Positions 10,675 through 38,948 of a DNA stretch of 41,509 nucleotides are shown in pieces (the first letter of the stretch is position 1; each line of letters starts with the position of its first letter). The notes under the pieces were generated by a model that did not search any database, was not told where the DNA came from, and saw only the letters and a program-made list of their open reading frames with translations. The translations under genes were made by a program, and so were the position numbers. This stretch comes from a virus: the IMG/VR virus record IMGVR_UViG_3300042542_001960, positions 1-41,509 of that record; one strand, 5' to 3'.

Positions 10675-10919
10675 TATGTACCTCTTTCTTTTATTGGTTG
10701 TTGTTTGTTACCCGTCACCTAGCGATGAAGGGTGAACGATGCAGGTGGTAGAACTAGCTACCCAACCCCACATATGCTCAGTTACCCCGATTGCAGTCGG
10801 AGATACCTGAGACTCCATACCTCGCCTAAATTAACGACCAAGCTATGGACTGCACACCATAGCTCGAATCTCTAGGGTCCTAGGATGTTAGTGTTGTGGT
10901 GGCCTGCACCGTTCACCGT
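10675..10919 (-). other. Non-coding intergenic stretch with several stem-loops
   Basis: No convincing gene is present on either strand. In minus-sense RNA the best stem is CGAGCUAUGG with CCAUAGCUUG (10839-10866), 10 pairs with one G-U and an 8-base loop. A nested pair of stems (CTCAG/CTGAG enclosing CCGA/TCGG) and a GGTAG/CTACC stem also occur. No tRNA T-loop was seen. It may be a structured leader, a small RNA or a termination region. Confidence 0.45.
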
Positions 10920-11063
10920 TCACCGATCATATCGGATTATGGATACATCGTCCCGATCTTCGCTCCAACCTTTCTCTTTCAAGAAAGATTCAGCTCGTTC
11001 GAGATTCTCGAAGCTTTTCACAATATAGTTATTGCGAACGACAAACCATTTTTGTTTAAGCAT
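10920..11063 (-). CDS. Small hypothetical protein, 47 aa
   Basis: A 47-codon frame with an AAGGAG ribosome binding site 6 bases before its ATG. The product (MLKQKWFVVRNNYIVKSFEN...) has the strand-helix-strand look of small phage proteins: FVVRNNYIVKSF, then a helix ERAESFLKEKGW, then VSIIRY. It starts back-to-back with the plus-strand small-terminase-like gene, 33 bases away. Function unknown. Confidence 0.7.
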   Translation of the reverse strand: MLKQKWFVVRNNYIVKSFENLERAESFLKEKGWSEDRDDVSIIRYDR

Positions 11064-11096
11064 TGTGTTCTCCTTTCAGTTAGTTATATAGTACTT
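11064..11096. promoter_or_regulatory. Short divergent intergenic region
   Basis: Only 33 bases separate two genes that point away from each other. The stretch carries the minus-strand ribosome binding site and an AT-rich core (TTAGTTATATAGTA) that could hold a -10 element. No clear -35 box is visible, so promoter assignment is tentative. Confidence 0.3.
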
Positions 11097-11579
11097 GTGC
11101 CCAAGAAGTTGGATGTAGATTGGAAAGCCATAGAAGGTTTATACACTATGGGGATGAAGCCAGACGCAATAGCCCACACATATAACCTTAACATTCAATC
11201 ACTTCGAACGAGGATTAAAAGGGGTCAATGGAGGGTTCAAAAGGATGCACTAAGGGCTCAAAAAGAGGTCATAGTGACCCAAGAGCGGGCTCAGATGGTC
11301 GCCAATGCTGGCACCGCCTATCAACAAAGGCTGACAAAGCACGTCGAAGCGGGGCTCGCCGTTCTCGACGACAATCTGCCCACCACCCGCCCCGAAGTCT
11401 CCCAACATTTTGATGCGTTGGGTAAGGTGGATAAGATTGCCGTTCGAGCCTATGGTTTGGAGTCCACAGTCCACGGTTCTCAGTCCACCACCCTCAATCT
11501 AAATCTTTTGCGTGTGGATGCAACACCTTGCACCGCAGAGACTTCCGTGAAAAAGGCGGAAGTGATTGATGTGCAGTGA
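11097..11579 (+). CDS. terS-like: Probable small terminase subunit (HTH protein), 160 aa
   Basis: The N-terminal 45 residues fit the helix-turn-helix of small terminase subunits: DWKAIEGLYTMGMKPDAIAHTYNL followed by SLRTRIKRGQW, the usual 'layer, spacer, recognition helix, then R-x-W' arrangement. The rest is helical with a charged tail, suiting oligomerisation and contact with the large subunit. I start at the GTG at 11097 so as to keep the conserved DWKAIEGLY lead; an ATG at 11151 has a better ribosome binding site but would cut the domain. The gene is the only plus-strand gene in its area and lies about 14 kb from the large terminase. A transcription regulator is the main alternative. Confidence 0.6.
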   Translation: MPKKLDVDWKAIEGLYTMGMKPDAIAHTYNLNIQSLRTRIKRGQWRVQKDALRAQKEVIVTQERAQMVANAGTAYQQRLTKHVEAGLAVLDDNLPTTRPEVSQHFDALGKVDKIAVRAYGLESTVHGSQSTTLNLNLLRVDATPCTAETSVKKAEVIDVQ

Positions 11580-11829: not shown

Positions 11830-11856
11830 CTCGGTAACCGTTAACCCTTGGTAGGA

Positions 11857-12306
11857 TTAGCTGGCGATGTCGATCGCCTTGGTCTCCATCTTAGCCTTGA
11901 GGGTACGATAGGCCGTCTTTTCGTCCTCGGTAAGATTGGAGTAGCCCTCGGGCAACTTCTCCTCTTTGACCTTGGCCTTGGGTACTACCTTGCGAATATA
12001 GGAGACGGACATCCGCCTCACTCCATTCTCGTCGGTATTGACCGAGACCTTATCGAACACTAGGCCGTTCTTATCCTCCATCCGAGTGATAAGTAACCGC
12101 CCGTTGCCGTTGGTCTCGTTGCAGTGTGCCGAGTGTTTCTTCACCCGCTCCTCGTGGGTGGAGTTGTCGTTGGTCAATCCTTCTGATTCGCAGAAGGCTT
12201 TGAATTTCAACGCCCCGCCGTAAGTCCTCGTTTCCGAGTTCTTATAGGTGCGGGTTGCCAATGCGTTGGCGGGATTAATCAATGCGAGTGTAGTATCTGT
12301 ATTCAT
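11857..12306 (-). CDS. Hypothetical protein, 149 aa
   Basis: A soluble protein starting MNTDTTLALINPANALATRTYKNSE, with a strong ribosome binding site (AAAAAGGAGAAAC). Residues 30-100 are mixed charged; the C-terminus (VPKAKVKEEKLPEGYSNLTEDEKTAYRTLKAKM) is helical and charged. It is the first gene downstream of the long repeat-bearing non-coding region, so a role in replication or early control is possible but only inferred from position. Confidence 0.7.
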   Translation of the reverse strand: MNTDTTLALINPANALATRTYKNSETRTYGGALKFKAFCESEGLTNDNSTHEERVKKHSAHCNETNGNGRLLITRMEDKNGLVFDKVSVNTDENGVRRMSVSYIRKVVPKAKVKEEKLPEGYSNLTEDEKTAYRTLKAKMETKAIDIAS

Positions 12307-13167
12307 ATTATGTTTCTCCTTTTTATGGGGTTGTTTCTATCCACCCTATCGGATGAATAGATGGCAACCCCCTTCAAAGCGTAAGGGGGAAGGGGACTAT
12401 CTTGTGAGTTTACACAAGGGAAGTATCCTATTCCTTACAGAAGGGGATTGTGATTCCCGAACCCTACCGAGCGATTCCCTCGGCGGATTCTTCCAACTCT
12501 GTCAGCAGGTGAAAACGCTAAACCGATTCTCAAAGAGGACTATCAGCCTTACCCCTTCCATCCCTTAGTGGAACGCATTGGAGACTATCTCCCGCTTATT
12601 CCCGACAAGAAGGGTAGTATTGAGGCTTTCCTCCCATCCACTTTCTCGTTTCTCCCCCCGCTTATTCCTCGGCGTTATCTTCCTCGGAAACCTAAACAGC
12701 CCTCTTGCTAGGATGGCCTATGTCAAATTTAACTACTAACTTATGCGATGCACCTACCCCAAACTTCCCACAAAGGGTAGGGGGACTCCCTATTCCTACC
12801 CCCCCGCTGGCTGTCAAGATTCCTACGTATAAGGACGTGAAAAATTTAATTTATTTTTTATCCCCTTTGGGCTAAAAACCCACCCTATTACACCCAAAAC
12901 CGTAAAAACTACCCCCAGGGTGGATTATCTTGATCCACCCTAATATAATCAACCCACCCCCTAAGTCGTTGATTTTCTTCTGTAGTGGTGTATATGGTGG
13001 ATTATATTTCTAATATATAGTAGTGTATAGGAAAATATAAGTATGGGCACAGCCCCATTTGTTATATAGGTAGCTCTTTCAAAAAGGCCCTTTTGATCCA
13101 CCATATACACCACGTCTCAAGTAAATCAACGACTTACGTCGAAAAACCTAATCCACCCTGATTTTCC
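12307..13167. other. Long repeat-bearing non-coding region, candidate replication origin
   Basis: About 860 bases hold no convincing gene in a genome that is otherwise packed. The region has repeated ATCCACCCT-type 9-mers in both orientations, a 41-base imperfect inverted repeat (12962-13136) around an AT-rich 93-base centre, an AT-rich tract near 12840-12865 (TTTAATTTATTTTTTA), and a CCCCCTT/AAGGGGG hairpin (12368-12389). The left half also has a 12-base direct repeat CCCGCTTATTCC at 12591 and 12657. Iterons next to AT-rich DNA fit an origin bound by an initiator; a complex control region is the alternative. Confidence 0.5.
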
Positions 13168-13179
13168 TTAATCCACCCT
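12339..13179. repeat. Dispersed 9-mer ATCCACCCT family (iteron-like)
   Basis: Exact ATCCACCCT copies lie at 12339, 12933, 13151 and 13171; the inverted form AGGGTGGAT is at 12917, making a 9-base-pair palindrome with the copy at 12933 around a 7-base gap. Shorter copies (GGTGGAT at 12996, ATCCACC at 13096) lie inside the arms of the large inverted repeat. The last copy is just inside the 3' end of the next gene. Confidence 0.65.
12962..13136. repeat. 41-base imperfect inverted repeat
   Basis: The left arm is 12962-13002 and the right arm 13096-13136. Each arm has two conserved blocks, one of 14 bases (TAAGTCGTTGATTT) and one of 17 bases (TGGTGTATATGGTGGAT), separated by exactly 10 unconserved bases. 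The 93-base centre is AT-rich and has its own small GGGC/GCCC hairpin. Conserved blocks at fixed spacing look like paired protein-binding sites. Confidence 0.75.
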
Positions 13180-13404
13180 CCTAGGTCCACGCTTCGACAC
13201 CTTACGTCGTCTAGCCTTGGTAACTACCGTAGGCTCAGCAGCTTTCCAGATTTTGTAGTCTACATCCAGCTTTAAGGACTCCTCCATACAGAACTGATAG
13301 ACCTTCCAAGACCAAGGGTCCCATCCAAACCATGGGGTTCTGGATATAAGGTCACCGATCCAATAGTATAGATATGACACCGCGGATTGGAATCTCTTGA
13401 TCAT
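13168..13404 (-). CDS. Hypothetical protein, 78 aa
   Basis: A Trp-rich, helical N-terminus (SYLYYWIGDLIS and WFGWDPWSWKVYQFCMEESL) is followed by a very basic C-terminus (KARRRKVSKRGPRRVD). It may be membrane-associated through the aromatic part. Its ATG overlaps the FkbM-like gene's stop as ATGA, so the two are probably co-translated. This layout is common among small phage proteins, but I cannot name a family. Confidence 0.7.
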   Translation of the reverse strand: MIKRFQSAVSYLYYWIGDLISRTPWFGWDPWSWKVYQFCMEESLKLDVDYKIWKAAEPTVVTKARRRKVSKRGPRRVD

Positions 13405-14006
13405 ACACGCCTAGCCAGAATGTTCTCTCTGGACTTATGTACCTGTTCGAATCCCTGCAGCCGGAGTTCTTCGATCGTCGCGTCGTAGCTTCGCTCTTGA
13501 TTGTACTCGATACAGATGAGACGTGTAGAATCCAAAGTCCCACGCATAGCCTTTAGGATTTCTAGATCGAACCCTTCCGTGTCTATGCTGATGAAGTCGT
13601 AGGTCTCGGTTAAATCCTTGGGTGTTATGGTGGATACCAAGTACGACATTGGATACGGGGTTAGCGGAAATAGCTCCTTCGCATTGGGCGCAATCGAGGA
13701 ACTGTATTGTTCGTTCGTCCCGTCCAAGAAGAATCTGGTAAGCCCGGACTTATCCGACATTGCCGCGTTTATCAAAGTGAACCGCGAGTCCTGACCGTAC
13801 ATCTGCAGCAAGCTCATAAACAATCTTGGGTTTGGTTCGACCAGCGTCCCCCACCAACCGGAGAGGGCGAGTGCTCTGGTATTACTTAGCGTCTGTCCAT
13901 CGTAGGCCCCGATATCCAAGAACCTACCGCTGGGCAAATCGGCCAGCTCCCGTAGGATGACCGGCTGTTCGTCGGTCTGGGTGAAGTGTTCCATTGACCC
14001 GAACAT
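13401..14006 (-). CDS. FkbM-family methyltransferase, 201 aa
   Basis: A SAM-dependent methyltransferase of the FkbM type. Motif I is GRFLDIGAYDGQTLSN (residues about 27-42), the second acidic motif is LVEPNPRLF, and the typical YDFISIDTEGFDLEILKAM stretch is in the C-terminal half. FkbM enzymes usually methylate hydroxyl groups of sugars or related compounds, so the target may be a glycan on the virion or host surface. A second FkbM-type gene lies at 32223-32876 in the head module. The exact start is uncertain: ATGs at 14006 and 13994 both lack a clear ribosome binding site. Confidence 0.82.
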   Translation of the reverse strand: MFGSMEHFTQTDEQPVILRELADLPSGRFLDIGAYDGQTLSNTRALALSGWWGTLVEPNPRLFMSLLQMYGQDSRFTLINAAMSDKSGLTRFFLDGTNEQYSSSIAPNAKELFPLTPYPMSYLVSTITPKDLTETYDFISIDTEGFDLEILKAMRGTLDSTRLICIEYNQERSYDATIEELRLQGFEQVHKSRENILARRV

Positions 14007-15402: not shown

Positions 15403-17541
15403 CTAGTACTCCTCACGAGCCAGACTGATCTTCCAGATTGTAGTACCACGTACAATCTTTCGTTTCAGCCTCTCGTCTGTTGATGAGAGGTTAGCCAACA
15501 TTCTTCCAAGTGCCCGCGCCCCGTGGATAAACATCTTCACGGAGTCCCGGAGACTTGCGTCATTCTGGAAACCCAATAACAGTTCCGTTGCCGTGCCCGA
15601 CCATTCGATTTCTTCCGGATGATCCTTGGCGTACTGCTTTAGGTACAAGTCTAGGAACTCGGAAAATTCGTGTGAGCCGGACGACGACCTGGATTCCTGT
15701 AATAGTATCGGATGATGGTAGGACTTAACTCCGTACCGTTCCGAACCCTTGGTCTCCGCCGGCGGGGTCCAGCTTACCAACCATGCAGCGAAGTGGGGCA
15801 TCTCTTTGTTGAGAGTTGCTTCCAAGTCCGCGTGGCTGGGGAACTCGATGCCGTGATCCTTGAACTTGTATAGGCTGATCTTATCTAGGATCGAACCGTC
15901 GGTGTGGGGGATTGCTTGAATGGATTCTGGATCGTCGTTGAGAGTATCGATGATCCGCCCCATCCAGTCCACGGTCTGCGCATCATGGAACTTCCTGTGA
16001 TATGCATGGCGTGTGTTTGCTACACCCTTCTTGATCATCTGACTAAACTTCTTGTGGGACTCCAACGAATTCGCTGAAGACGAGTCGTCGACGTTCCATA
16101 CGGCTACTTCGAACAGTTCGGCGTTGAACGACGAACCATTGACGAGGTAATCCGATGCGTCGCTACCTCCCCCCATAAGGCTGGCAACGATGCGTGATCC
16201 GAAGAGAGTTTTACCTTTCCCGACGGGGCCAGCTATGAAAACTGCCTGACCGGGTACGAGGCGACCTTCGAGGGCGGAGCAGTAAAACCGCTTAAGCCAA
16301 GCCATCAGGTAGGTAAGGGAGTCGTGTGGGTCTAGAGCCCTGTCCAAGAAGTTCGCTATCCATGGGAAGTTCTCTCCCCAAGCATGGGAACCCTCGGCTG
16401 GCTGTACAATGCGTAGGCGCGAGATGTTGAGCACTCTACGCCCGTTCTGGATCAGGACCTCCCTTGGGTCGTAAAGACACGGTACAGGGGCATCTATGAT
16501 GCGAGAATCACGTATCCTACGCATCGCCTCATCCGCTTGGGATAGGGTACCCCGTAGATCGGGTGCCCCCGATAGCCCAAAAGAGCCAATGATATCCTGC
16601 TTAGCTACCCCAGACTCTGTAGACCGCCACTTACCTTCCAAGTCCCGACGCCAGTAATACTTGCCGTCGAACCAGAAACTGGAGATGGCACCACCGTATT
16701 GATCCTCTTGGAACTCCCGTACCCAGTTGGAACCGAACAAGTCTGCCCAGTTGTAGAAGCTACGTTCCTGTGAGAAGGCAACCATGCCTGTCTCGGTAAC
16801 GATTGCTGCGGTTGGGTTTGAGTTGGCTGTGGCCTCGGGGCTCCAGAACGCTGGGCCTCGGGCTCCGACTTCAAACGGTCCCATCCATTTTCCTGGATAG
16901 GTTGCTTGCAGTCTCTCAAATACTTTATCGAGTGGGATTGCCGCGTCACCTTCGCCACGATACTTGCGGGCTCGCTCCACCGCGATACCCAAAAGATTAT
17001 GGATTGCGTTAACCTTGATCGGTGTTTCGCTGAAGGTAATCGCCGGTGGCATCCAGCAGTAATATTGTTCGGGACGTTGGATGTTATCGTCCAGTCCGGG
17101 AAAAAGATTCTTAGCATTGGTTTCTTTTATTAGTAGTCCGAGAAATTCTTTCATCACTCCGGGGAGTATGGAGATTGGTTCTTCGAACATCCAGATGACA
17201 CGGCAGTTTCCGCTGACAGTACGATGAGCGAACATGGGTTTGAAACCCGTGCGTGTTCTACGTCCTAACCCGTCGGTGATTTCTTCACGGGTCACGACTG
17301 CATCATAGTCGGCGATCAGTCCGTGCATCTTCCACGGAGCATTCGTTTTGTTCACCCGACCGTGAGGATTGATTCCCTCATAGGCGGAAACGAAGTGACC
17401 TTCGGTCGTACTTAACGACACCCAGTCTTTGAACGCATCTTTGCTTTTCGGAAACTCTGGCCAGTCCTTGATCTCCCAAGGTTTGACTGGTGTGATGTTT
17501 CCGCTCGATAGGTTAGGGAGTGAGAAGAGAGTTGTCTTCAT
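15403..17541 (-). CDS. Primase-helicase (AEP-like primase with SF3-type helicase), 712 aa
   Basis: The C-terminal half has a P-loop (GPVGKGKT, about residues 438-445) and a Walker B-like strand (VAVWNVDDSS, about 479-488), as in SF3-type phage and plasmid helicases. The N-terminal part has a GLIADYDAVV segment (about 74-83), which resembles the catalytic acidic pair of archaeo-eukaryotic primases, and a later RTVSGNCRVIWMFEEP stretch. This layout fits a combined primase and replicative helicase. The start at 17541 is set by an ATGA overlap with the DNA polymerase gene upstream, so the two replisome proteins are translationally coupled. Confidence 0.82.
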   Translation of the reverse strand: MKTTLFSLPNLSSGNITPVKPWEIKDWPEFPKSKDAFKDWVSLSTTEGHFVSAYEGINPHGRVNKTNAPWKMHGLIADYDAVVTREEITDGLGRRTRTGFKPMFAHRTVSGNCRVIWMFEEPISILPGVMKEFLGLLIKETNAKNLFPGLDDNIQRPEQYYCWMPPAITFSETPIKVNAIHNLLGIAVERARKYRGEGDAAIPLDKVFERLQATYPGKWMGPFEVGARGPAFWSPEATANSNPTAAIVTETGMVAFSQERSFYNWADLFGSNWVREFQEDQYGGAISSFWFDGKYYWRRDLEGKWRSTESGVAKQDIIGSFGLSGAPDLRGTLSQADEAMRRIRDSRIIDAPVPCLYDPREVLIQNGRRVLNISRLRIVQPAEGSHAWGENFPWIANFLDRALDPHDSLTYLMAWLKRFYCSALEGRLVPGQAVFIAGPVGKGKTLFGSRIVASLMGGGSDASDYLVNGSSFNAELFEVAVWNVDDSSSANSLESHKKFSQMIKKGVANTRHAYHRKFHDAQTVDWMGRIIDTLNDDPESIQAIPHTDGSILDKISLYKFKDHGIEFPSHADLEATLNKEMPHFAAWLVSWTPPAETKGSERYGVKSYHHPILLQESRSSSGSHEFSEFLDLYLKQYAKDHPEEIEWSGTATELLLGFQNDASLRDSVKMFIHGARALGRMLANLSSTDERLKRKIVRGTTIWKISLAREEY

Positions 17542-19301
17542 TTCTCGTAACACTCCGCGTCTTTGGATTCGCTACCAATGGGACAACCCGGTAGCCATTC
17601 TGGTGTGGTACTCATAATGTGGTCTACGTCCTTACATTTCACGTCCTTATCAACTTCAAGGATAACTTCGTCGTGGACGTGAAACAGAACACGAAGCCCT
17701 TGGTTTTCGAGGCGTTGGACACATTCTGCGAACACGTCCCTCGCCGTTGCTTGAACTAGATTCTCACACAGCCGTCCGCCGTAAAGAGGATATTTCGGCC
17801 CTCCCAATTCTAGCGAAGCCCTCCAGTCTGGTTTGCCATGCTTACCCATTTGGGGCGTGACATCCCAATACTTTTGTGCCCGACCTGATGGAAGCTCTAC
17901 GTGGTAGTCTTCGCCTTTGGATTCCCGAAGCCCTCGCTCCAGCTTGCTCCATAGTTCCACCACTTTAAAATTTTTACGACGATAGTCGTCGACCAAGTCC
18001 CTGCTCCTAGCTTCGGTGATTGTCAGGCCAGCCATGAGTTTGGCGATGAGAACGAACTTCTTGGAACCGCACCCATAGCCCAGCCCCAAGACCTGTGCCT
18101 TGGCTAGGGCATAGAGATCCTTGGATTTCTTGAAGGTGCCCTTCTCACCCTTCCACATCCCCGTGGATATGGCAAAGGCTTCGTAGATGCCATAGCCGTT
18201 CCCTACAGCCTCAAGGAGGGCGGTATTACCCGCCAGCCATGCCAGTACCCTTGGCTCGATTTGGGACAAGTCGGAGATGATGAACTTCTTCCCTGGCCTA
18301 GGGATGAGGCAAGCCCGCAGGTCTACCCCGAAGCATGGGTCTCTCGGTAGGTTCTGGAGGTTGAACTTGCTGTCCCCTGACCACCTACCAGTATGGGCAC
18401 CAAAGTACTTTAGCCCGAAAGGCATAGTCCCATCGGGACGCCGGCGACGATAAAGGATATGCATCTTCTGCAAGAGCATGTTGGCCTTACGCCAGTCCCG
18501 CATAGCCCCAACCCAAGGGAACTTCTCGCCGTAGGTTTCTTCCCAGAGCTGACAGCCGGGATCGTCCTCGGAAGTGGACGGGGGTACCTCGATGCCAGCC
18601 TCACGGCAAGCCTTGGCTAGTCCCGTTACGGACAGCACGTCGCTGGTGTAGTCCCCGTCGGTCTTCCAAGGCATGTGCTCAATCGCCTTGATACGAATCC
18701 AATCGAGAGCGTTAAGCCCCTTGTCGACCAGTTCGGTGTTAACATTGATGCCATGCCATCCAGCCTGAACGGTATGCTTTGATAAAAATTTTTCCACCGC
18801 GGACATGCGGTCACCGAAAGTCTCGTATAGGTCTAAGCAATGCTGAGCGTCCTTCGCTGCGTAGAGCTTAAACTCCGCACCCTGCTCGGTATCTTTAACT
18901 TCATTCCAAGTCTTGCCCTTCATGCCAGAGCGAGGATCTTTTGACATGTCTACCCCGAGGAGTTGCTTAGAAGCCCCAGCCAAGTTACGGGGAGCACCCA
19001 TGTAGGCTGATAGGTTGGCTGTGCAGAAGAACTCCTTTGGCTTAGCCGTGGTGATACCCAGCTCATGCAAACGCTCGATACACGATCCGTCGAATGCGTA
19101 GTTATGTGCTACCCAACGCTGACCGTCGATCTTATCCCATGGTGCGTTCTTAGGGTGCCCAACGTATTCTACTCCCAGCCCCTTGATGGCAACCATGTAG
19201 ATGTCAGCCTTCTCGTGACGTAGGTAATGCCAAGTACCCAGCGTCGTGATGGACGTTTCCTTGTCGTAGTATGTTTCAAAATCTATGGCGTAGGTATTCA
19301 T
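17538..19301 (-). CDS. polA-like: DNA polymerase, family A, with 3'-5' exonuclease domain, 587 aa
   Basis: The N-terminus is a DnaQ-type proofreading domain: ExoI AIDFET (5-10), ExoII HNYAFD (66-71) and ExoIII YAAKDA (147-152). The polymerase domain has TGRWS (304-308), NLQNLPR (314-320), motif A SDLSQIEPR (343-351), motif B KAQVLGLGYG (401-410) and motif C HDE (543-545). No 5' nuclease domain is present, as usual in phages. The position equal to Phe762 of E. coli PolI is Leu405 here. In motif A the usual DYSQIELR is DLSQIEPR. It is the replicative polymerase and is coupled to the primase-helicase by ATGA. Confidence 0.95.
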   Translation of the reverse strand: MNTYAIDFETYYDKETSITTLGTWHYLRHEKADIYMVAIKGLGVEYVGHPKNAPWDKIDGQRWVAHNYAFDGSCIERLHELGITTAKPKEFFCTANLSAYMGAPRNLAGASKQLLGVDMSKDPRSGMKGKTWNEVKDTEQGAEFKLYAAKDAQHCLDLYETFGDRMSAVEKFLSKHTVQAGWHGINVNTELVDKGLNALDWIRIKAIEHMPWKTDGDYTSDVLSVTGLAKACREAGIEVPPSTSEDDPGCQLWEETYGEKFPWVGAMRDWRKANMLLQKMHILYRRRRPDGTMPFGLKYFGAHTGRWSGDSKFNLQNLPRDPCFGVDLRACLIPRPGKKFIISDLSQIEPRVLAWLAGNTALLEAVGNGYGIYEAFAISTGMWKGEKGTFKKSKDLYALAKAQVLGLGYGCGSKKFVLIAKLMAGLTITEARSRDLVDDYRRKNFKVVELWSKLERGLRESKGEDYHVELPSGRAQKYWDVTPQMGKHGKPDWRASLELGGPKYPLYGGRLCENLVQATARDVFAECVQRLENQGLRVLFHVHDEVILEVDKDVKCKDVDHIMSTTPEWLPGCPIGSESKDAECYEK

Positions 19302-36858: not shown

Positions 36859-38619
36859 ATGGCAGCACTAACCGGACAAACAATTGCCAGCACTTATCCG
36901 CAGTTGCTCAAGACTGCTGCTGTTGGTGGTTTATCTGCTACCCCTACTATAGTCGAGGATGGTGACGGCACATCGTCGGCCCTTTCCGTCAGTACAGTCG
37001 GGGCGTCGGTAGCTGGTACTTTAGCCGCTTCTGGAAATTTTTCGATAGACTCCACAAAGTTCGCGGTAATCGCAGCTTCTGGAAACACTTCAGTTGCTGG
37101 AACTTTTGATACGGCTGGGGATTTCAAGGTAAGTGTAAACAAGTTCACCGTTGCCGCCATAACCGGAAACACGGTTGTAGCTGGAACTCTGAATGTTTCT
37201 GGTAACTCTGGATTTTCTTCCGATCTATCTGTGGCCGGAACCCTGTCAGTAGGGACCTTCAACCCGACAAACCTTTTAGTTGGTGGGACCGCGTCAGTGC
37301 TCGGTAATTTTGATGTTAATAGCACCAAGTTTACTGTGAACGCCACCTCAGGTAATACGACTGTTGCCGGAACCTTGGATGTTACGGGAACTATCACAGG
37401 TTCTTTGAACGGTAATGCCAGCACCGCGACTACTCTCGCAACGGCCAGGACAATCGCAATTTCTGGCGACATAACCGGAACAGCAACTTCTTTCAACGGA
37501 TCCGCTAATATCGCAATAGCTTCGGCAATCACCGCAGGTTCAATTGTTGACGCTGATGTTAACAATAGCGCAGCGATTGCAGACACAAAACTAGCTACAA
37601 TTTCAACGGCTGGTAAAGTTTCTAATTCTGCGACTACTGCTACGGCTGCCAACACTCCTAGCACGATTGTTCTTCGCGGAGCTTCTGGTGAGTTCGCTTG
37701 TGGCGCGATTACGGGTTCTCTAACTGGTAATGCCAGCACCGCAACTACTGCAGCTACCTTGACAACTGCTAGAACAATCGCAATTTCTGGGGACGTAACT
37801 GGGACGGCTACTTCTTTCAACGGTTCTTCGGATATTACAATATCTTCAGCTATTACCCCAGGTTCAATTGTTAACGCTGATGTTAATGCTAGCGCAGCGA
37901 TTGCGGACACAAAATTAGCCACTATTTCGACGGCTGGAAAAGTCTCGAATTCAGCGACAACCGCTACTGCTGCCGCCTCTTCGAACACGATTGTTCTTCG
38001 GGGAGCTTCTGGTGAGTTTGCTTGTAGTCAGATAAACGGATTATCTTTAAGCAGAGGCGGCAATAACAGCATTACTTCGAATATTGCTGTTGGTAATTCG
38101 GCTTTGGCAACTAACACAACTGGAAGCAACAACACAGCCACCGGAGTAGGCGCCCTCGCCACAAACTCCACTGGTTCCAGTAATACTGCTAATGGGCAGG
38201 GAGCACTTTATACTAATAATGGAAGTGGCAATGTTGCTGTTGGTATAAATGCACTCTTCAACAATACAATTGGGGGTAATAACTGTGCTATTGGCAGGAA
38301 TTCTCTTATTGCAAATATAGATGGTAACTCCAATACTGCTTTAGGATTTCAGGCTGGGGATACAATTCAAACTGGTGGAAATAATATATGTATTGGGGCT
38401 GGAGCAGATGTTAATACAGGATCAAGAGCTAATTGTATTGTTCTTGGGGCCAATGCGACAGCACAGGTTGACGGAGAGATTGCTTTTTCCTCTACTCTCG
38501 CAACCAAAACGACTATTGGCGCGAACGGGGGAGCAACCGCCCTCACAGCTCTTCCAGTTGGGTACATCCGAATTCGTATTGGCGCGAACGCTTTTCAAAT
38601 CCCATATTATAATGTATGA
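36859..38619 (+). CDS. Fibre protein with tandem duplication and YadA-like head repeats, 586 aa
   Basis: Low-complexity Ala/Thr/Ser/Gly/Asn make-up marks a fibrous beta-structured protein. The N-terminal third has three copies of KF-x-V-x-A-x2-GNT-x-VAGT (near residues 67, 95, 157). Residues 181-284 and 286-393 are a tandem duplication. Residues about 408-505 have repeated NxA-x-G-x2-A/S-L units (AVGNSALAT, TATGVGALAT, AVGINALF, CAIGRNSL), like the left-handed beta-roll of YadA-type adhesin heads. It is probably a trimeric receptor-binding or head fibre. The C-terminus (YIRIRIGANAFQIPYYNV) may cap the trimer. Confidence 0.82.
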   Translation: MAALTGQTIASTYPQLLKTAAVGGLSATPTIVEDGDGTSSALSVSTVGASVAGTLAASGNFSIDSTKFAVIAASGNTSVAGTFDTAGDFKVSVNKFTVAAITGNTVVAGTLNVSGNSGFSSDLSVAGTLSVGTFNPTNLLVGGTASVLGNFDVNSTKFTVNATSGNTTVAGTLDVTGTITGSLNGNASTATTLATARTIAISGDITGTATSFNGSANIAIASAITAGSIVDADVNNSAAIADTKLATISTAGKVSNSATTATAANTPSTIVLRGASGEFACGAITGSLTGNASTATTAATLTTARTIAISGDVTGTATSFNGSSDITISSAITPGSIVNADVNASAAIADTKLATISTAGKVSNSATTATAAASSNTIVLRGASGEFACSQINGLSLSRGGNNSITSNIAVGNSALATNTTGSNNTATGVGALATNSTGSSNTANGQGALYTNNGSGNVAVGINALFNNTIGGNNCAIGRNSLIANIDGNSNTALGFQAGDTIQTGGNNICIGAGADVNTGSRANCIVLGANATAQVDGEIAFSSTLATKTTIGANGGATALTALPVGYIRIRIGANAFQIPYYNV

Positions 38620-38948
38620 GCAATACAACTTACACTTGGAAAGTTACCAGCATGAGTGTCCTGCCCGAACAGGGTGGGGAAGCTGATGTTGTGGTTCTTA
38701 CAACATACAATGTCATAGGAGTACAAGATCAAACAACTGCCGATATTGGGGGGATACAACAATTCACCTATACTGGTGGGGAATTCACACCCTACGAAGA
38801 TTTGACCGAAGAACAGGTGGTCGGATGGATTCAGTCGGCACTTGGCGGAGACGGGATTAACTCTATTTATTCGTGTATCGACGGACAGATCAATTCCATT
38901 TTGAATCCTCCCCCAACACCGCAACCTGAACCTTTACCTTGGAGTTAA
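38616..38948 (+). CDS. Fibre-linked conserved phage protein, 110 aa
   Basis: The start overlaps the fibre stop as ATGA. The motif order TYTWKVTSMSVLPEQGGEADVVV, then GGEFTPYEDLTEEQVVGWIQSALG, is of a small family that often lies directly after phage fibre genes; I recall it without a confirmed function. The C-terminus is Pro-rich (PPPTPQPEPLP). A chaperone or a minor tail component is possible. Confidence 0.7.
   Translation: MSNTTYTWKVTSMSVLPEQGGEADVVVLTTYNVIGVQDQTTADIGGIQQFTYTGGEFTPYEDLTEEQVVGWIQSALGGDGINSIYSCIDGQINSILNPPPTPQPEPLPWS

Follow-up and report, generated by a model that had tools for sequence, protein, structure and literature searches.

What occupies the some 860 bases between two early genes of an uncultured phage? 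The gap (positions 12307–13167) lies in a 41.5 kb phage genome fragment, hereafter the window, whose related contigs reach 64–66 kb. One of these, G007 (65 938 bases), carries a 155 bp end repeat with 99.4 % identity, its map therefore being circular or terminally redundant at around 65.8 kb. A first-pass annotation had read the whole gap as an initiator-bound replication origin. Our analysis supports this for the right half, while the left half behaves as a variable leader RNA: we consider it likely that the phage starts its replication at 12780–13180 by means of its own PrimPol-SF3 helicase (15403–17553), and that 12307–12770 is a separate leader RNA.

Genomic context of the gap

Early genes run mostly leftward from around 25.8 kb down to the low end of the window, and rightward structural genes start at 25.8 kb. 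The gap falls within the leftward block and is bordered by the start of a 149 aa protein gene (11857–12306, minus strand) and the end of a 78 aa protein gene (13168–13404, minus strand), the latter overlapping the outermost repeat described below and being adjoined by a methyltransferase-like gene (13401–14006, phrog_8156). The 149 aa protein belongs to a small, fast-evolving family (26–47 % identity to two relatives); used as a single query against viral contigs, it confirmed no relative. The neighbour annotated as small-terminase-like (10896–11579) owes this label to a weak terminase small subunit match (E 5.8e-5).

The gap itself is indeed gene-free, as first described: it holds only short ORFs of 50–106 aa, none of which is a clear conserved gene in the relatives, their translation matches being patchy and tracking conserved DNA elements. 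Searches of Rfam at gathering and relaxed thresholds gave no credible match, no tRNA or tmRNA was found, and neither the region nor its counterpart in a second clade showed DNA similarity in named phages. A search of genome contigs with the phage polymerase, aimed at the host, gave no match. Distant relatives of the primase-helicase occur in MAG contigs labelled Verrucomicrobiales, Opitutae, Blastopirellula and Acidimicrobiaceae, and are too distant for a host to be named from these labels.

Repeat architecture of the candidate origin

Eight GGTGG(A/G)T iterons, some on each strand, lie in the interval 12780–13180 along with two TAAGTCGTTGAT boxes inverted to each other. GGTGGAT is found on the plus strand at 12919–12925 and 12996–13002 and on the minus strand at 12933–12939, 13096–13102, 13151–13157 and 13171–13177, and the variant GGTGGGT on the minus strand at 12878–12884 and 12952–12958. 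The boxes, at 12962–12973 (plus strand) and 13125–13136 (minus strand), belong together with one iteron each to the arms of a 41 nt inverted repeat (12962–13002 and 13096–13136, 88 % complementary), and both boxes and inverted repeat had been overlooked at first pass. Between the arms lies an AT-rich core of 93 nt (13003–13095), a candidate melting site. A second AT-rich block followed by the box AAGGGGATAAA, in minus-strand reading, is located at 12835–12875 and is conserved in the clade. Following the element as the primase-helicase gene is transcribed, one meets iteron, iteron, box, iteron, AT-rich core, inverted iteron, inverted box, iteron, iteron, inverted iteron, iteron. The A+T content reaches 75–87 % in 60 bp stretches, in all near relatives as well as in both other clades.

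These repeats lie far above chance and are confined to the site. GGTGGATTA occurs four times in the interval (0.011 expected) and TAAGTCGTTGAT twice, numbers reached in none of 2000 dinucleotide shuffles in either case, and both are absent from the rest of the window. In an unbiased 8-mer recurrence scan, 12.8–13.25 kb was the first-ranked repeat cluster of the window, and the equivalent region also ranked first in the 65.9 kb G007. Elsewhere, dense short tandem repeats with 5–8 copies within 400 bases, i.e. at 1501–2200 of L022 and near 5250 of L025 (contig G009), outscore the origin cluster by the same score; judging from their position, they are likely to lie in tail or structural genes.

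The proposal of an origin had been built on a 9-mer, ATCCACCCT, of which 12339–13179 holds five exact copies, i.e. at 12339 (+), 12917 (−), 12933 (+), 13151 (+) and 13171 (+), and three with one mismatch, i.e. at 12878 (+), 12994 (−) and 13096 (+). Three of the copies listed at first pass need correcting: the one given as 12996 starts at 12994 and carries a mismatch, the one at 13171 sits past 13167, where the 78 aa gene ends, and the one at 12339 belongs to an RNA hairpin described below. With one mismatch allowed, the window contains 20 matches compared with 9.3 expected, a number reached in none of 100 shuffles; further exact copies elsewhere are absent from the 41.5 kb. Such copies, like a conserved gene inside the gap, had been named at first pass as grounds for refutation, and both of these tests came out in favour of an origin.

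In single-strand DNA folding, a stem-loop is strong in the window (z −8.3) and in L010 (z −10.1), around −3 in L061 and L063, not significant in L136 (−0.7) and absent in L005 (−0.7); a large stem-loop is therefore not a conserved feature. No copy of the DnaA box TTATNCACA, the mark of a DnaA-dependent origin, was found in the window. Cumulative GC skew, also suggested as a check, has its minimum at the switch of gene direction near 25.8 kb, at the equivalent place in G007 too, and makes no turn at the element. Since coding direction affects skew, this test is confounded, and we rejected GC skew as support for an origin. At fourfold sites, the genes to the left of the element differ in skew from those to its right, with no simple leading-strand pattern.

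The left half of the gap

The segment 12330–12770 cannot be aligned across the relatives and exists in three unrelated versions, i.e. that of the window and L002, that of L005 (around 16240–16900) and that of L010 (around 15905–16590) and L008 (around 15880–16640), and these agree only in some 70 bases adjoining the 149 aa gene, which form a hairpin. L010 and L008 share one version despite more diverged flanks, as if it had been swapped by recombination. The 9-mer copy at 12339, counted at first pass among the iterons, instead forms one arm of an RNA hairpin (12337–12360, minus strand), all 10 pairs of which are kept in four sequences, with 3 of the 10 changed on both sides. Compared with shuffled sequences, RNA folding of this part is much better in L010 (z −4.9), moderately better in the window (z −2.6) and unconvincing in L005 (z −1.0). 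The strongly structured L010 version had no match in Rfam, and looking for the left-half RNA in further genomes returned only those already known. Because of the split into versions and the compensated hairpin, we read 12307–12770 (minus strand) as a leader of the 149 aa gene, probably transcribed, or as a separate RNA, in either case outside the origin.

The element in related phages

The right half can be followed through three clades. Within the clade of the window, 12780–13180 aligns with L002 at 99.5 %, with L007 and L010 at 89 %, with L005 at 76 % and, over a shorter stretch, with L008 at 69 %, and the order of iterons and boxes is identical in L002, L007 and L010 and similar in L005 and L008. 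Clade 2 comprises L059–L062 and L132, with a polymerase 55 % identical to that of the window. Here, an element of around 400 bases lies 2.3–3.4 kb downstream of the primase-helicase gene among other flanking genes, with GGGTGGGG iterons pointing towards one another across an AT-rich core and, at its end, the box AGCCCTTTGGGGATAAA, similar to AAGGGGATAAA. Four of the five genomes also have a GTAAGTCCTTGAT box, the TAAGTC box being missing in L059 and, in clade 3, in L135. The element is nearly invariant in L060, L061, L062 and L132, while both flanks diverge. In L061, it sits between convergent genes, which argues against a role as promoter or leader.

Clade 3 consists of L063 and L135, which share 77 % identity with one another and around 44 % with the window, and in which the element lies directly behind the primase-helicase gene. 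The L063 repeats read TGACGTTT or TGACATTT, and all eight aligned sites differ in L135, where five are exact TGACACTT and the remainder close to it. Such a concerted change of many copies is expected from co-evolution with one binding protein, an indirect hint that the candidate initiator described below may bind the iterons. A different set of L063 repeats, AGGCTACA, numerous and in both orientations at 11851–12120, was dropped as iterons, since it is located inside the extended primase reading frame, i.e. in the N-terminal extension of the primase-helicase.

Across the three clades, the primase-helicase gene is found 0.1–3.4 kb from the element. The gene content between the two differs among relatives. 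Beside the candidate origin in L002 (14783–15697) there are copies of part of the tail-fibre-like gene of the window (36859–38619; window 38113–38670), far from the structural genes. Contigs of three relatives end in or near the candidate origin, i.e. L006 at 15690 (base 1 of contig G005), adjoining a TAAGTCGTT box, L002 at 17357 and L003 at 16088, equivalent to around 13117, 12315 and 13471 of the window, respectively; the assemblies were probably interrupted there by repeats and variable DNA.

A candidate initiator with predicted PrimPol and SF3 helicase domains

The candidate initiator is a 716 aa protein (15403–17553, minus strand), predicted to combine an AEP-type PrimPol, an SF3 helicase and a winged helix. 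Its only Pfam match is DUF5906, no homologue was found in named phages at 1e-5, and a sequence search against the PDB gave chance-level matches only. The domain assignment draws on an AlphaFold model with a mean pLDDT of 84. The C-terminal 430 residues of the model best match the NrS-1 polymerase (Z 22 over 363 residues), and the model also matches the SaPI5 primase-helicase (7ola/7om0, Z 17), the primase-helicases of ASFV and poxviruses, and AAV Rep. The N-terminal domain folded alone best matches the S-2L PrimPol (Z 8.0 over 148 residues), and nearly all rows with a Z of 5 or more are AEP-fold enzymes; Foldseek E values remain just above 0.001. All of 36 sequences share D82, D84 and D155, in line with AEP catalytic acids. 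In the last 100 residues, the predicted secondary structure shows the helices of a winged helix and a terminal hairpin. In nearly all relatives with enough sequence, the gene is adjoined by that of a family A-like DNA polymerase (17538–19301, minus strand).

This part diverges more than the helicase between genomes with different iterons (31 vs 50 % identity between the window and L132, 66 vs 82 % between L063 and L135), which fits, without proving, a co-evolution with the iterons.

From this protein and the layout of the site, initiation may be pictured as follows. The C-terminal winged helix would bind the GGTGGAT iterons that face each other across the AT-rich core, whereupon SF3 rings could assemble on both sides and melt it, aided in some genomes by the 41 nt arms, which have the potential to fold into a stem-loop. 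The PrimPol would then prime the exposed strands, possibly at the GTG contained in most iterons of all clades, as the analogy with the NrS-1 polymerase and ORF904 of pRN1 suggests, and the adjacent family A polymerase would extend the primers.

Origin or another cis-acting site

Judged by its sequence, the element appears to unite what an iteron origin should have, i.e. a confined non-coding repeat cluster, an adjacent AT-rich candidate melting region and a nearby putative initiator gene conserved together with it. The inverted layout around an AT-rich core, recurring in three clades near the predicted PrimPol-SF3-winged-helix protein, points the same way. Several observations weaken the reading as an origin: GC skew makes no turn at the site, the stable stem-loop is present in the window and L010 yet not in L005, the TAAGTC box is lacking in L059 and L135, and most relatives below 44 % polymerase identity have no clear cluster, the repeat scan at 34–44 % identity mostly finding none beside the primase-helicase. 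Repeats of this kind may also serve regulation, packaging, recombination or partition, each of which is weakened because the gene context around the element changes.

The repeats could be operators at which a phage regulator controls leftward transcription, and 12915–12943 an intrinsic terminator, making this a regulatory region and no origin. The element does lie between two leftward genes, the iteron at 12919–12925 forms a terminator-like hairpin together with 12933–12941, two minus-strand promoter-like sites are present, albeit with promoters at chance level, and a concerted iteron change would equally fit a regulator and its operators. However, the convergent neighbours in L061 need no promoter there, the element remains near the primase-helicase though the adjacent genes change, and operators are not usually laid out as inverted iterons on either side of a long AT-rich core; we regard this explanation as improbable. 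A packaging site of the pac or cos type beside the small-terminase-like gene, suggested by the weak match 1.2 kb away, by contig ends nearby and by the end repeat of G007 around 1 kb from the element, seems very improbable. That end repeat lies outside the element, and the contig ends inside the element coincide with the inverted repeat and the variable stretch, both common places for assembly breaks. Moreover, in clade 2 more than 3 kb separate the weakly matching terminase-like gene from the element, and the clade 3 loci yielded no such gene, whereas all three clades have the primase-helicase close by. Recombination or partition sites (att, res or parS-like) with arm-type repeats show a similar layout of inverted boxes flanked by short repeats, but we give such a function hardly any credence, as the proteins scanned, which cover part of the genes of the full genome, included none recognisable as an integrase or partition protein, and the rIIA/rIIB-like genes together with the phage's own polymerase suggest a lytic phage.

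Comparison with known replication systems

The candidate origin has parallels among mobile elements. In staphylococcal pathogenicity islands (SaPIs), iterons flank an AT-rich region of the origin, and the SaPI primase-helicase shares the SF3 helicase fold with the model (7ola/7om0). SaPIs are satellites of Staphylococcus with no sequence relation found to the phage studied here.

Similar in domain order are plasmid pRN1 and Bordetella phage BIP-1, whose replication proteins likewise consist of AEP primase, SF3 helicase and winged helix (here by predicted fold). In pRN1, deletion analysis traced the origin to a stem-loop that lies just 3′ of such a replication gene, and the proposed BIP-1 origin is also a stem-loop, both without origin iterons, which were rejected in BIP-1 (PMC4234260). 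Like these, our element is non-coding and lies 3′ of the replication protein gene, and in the window and L010 it has inverted arms with a loop. In contrast, the iterons are the conserved feature here and the stem-loop is not, and in the clade of the window 2.2 kb of DNA with other genes separates the element from the primase-helicase gene.

The NrS-1 PrimPol-helicase offers the closest C-terminal fold and also joins PrimPol and SF3 helicase in one chain (PMC7102993, PMC8718748), although sequence identity is only around 12 % and the AEP domain here is closer to that of S-2L. For the NrS-1 polymerase, GTGG and GTGA are strong primase recognition sites with efficient priming (PMC8718748). The iterons contain GTGG in clades 1 and 2 and often GTGA in clade 3, a short match that is only a lead. 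The NrS-1 site TTTGGTTA has no copy in the window, which is part of the genome. In satellite phage P4, the winged helix of the alpha primase-helicase binds origin repeats (PMC4234260); alpha has a bacterial-type (TOPRIM) primase, whereas the N-terminal model here matches AEP primases, and no TOPRIM-type primase fused to a helicase was found.

Implications for phage replication

An origin in a phage is ordinary. The novelty lies in a clade-specific iteron origin candidate that recurs in uncultured phages next to an AEP PrimPol-SF3 protein. Little is known of the origins from which phage PrimPol-SF3 helicases work, and for this class the literature proposes a stem-loop lacking iterons, whereas the three clades described here show clade-specific iterons that change together. 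As both the DNA site and the protein can be named, origin choice by such an initiator is testable with one purified protein and a 400 bp fragment. It is tempting, though for now rather doubtful, to extend this to a widespread group of uncultured phages in which the AEP PrimPol-SF3 protein is an iteron-binding initiator, the iterons double as GTG start sites of the primase, and iterons and winged helix co-evolve. If true, origin recognition and priming would read one set of repeats.
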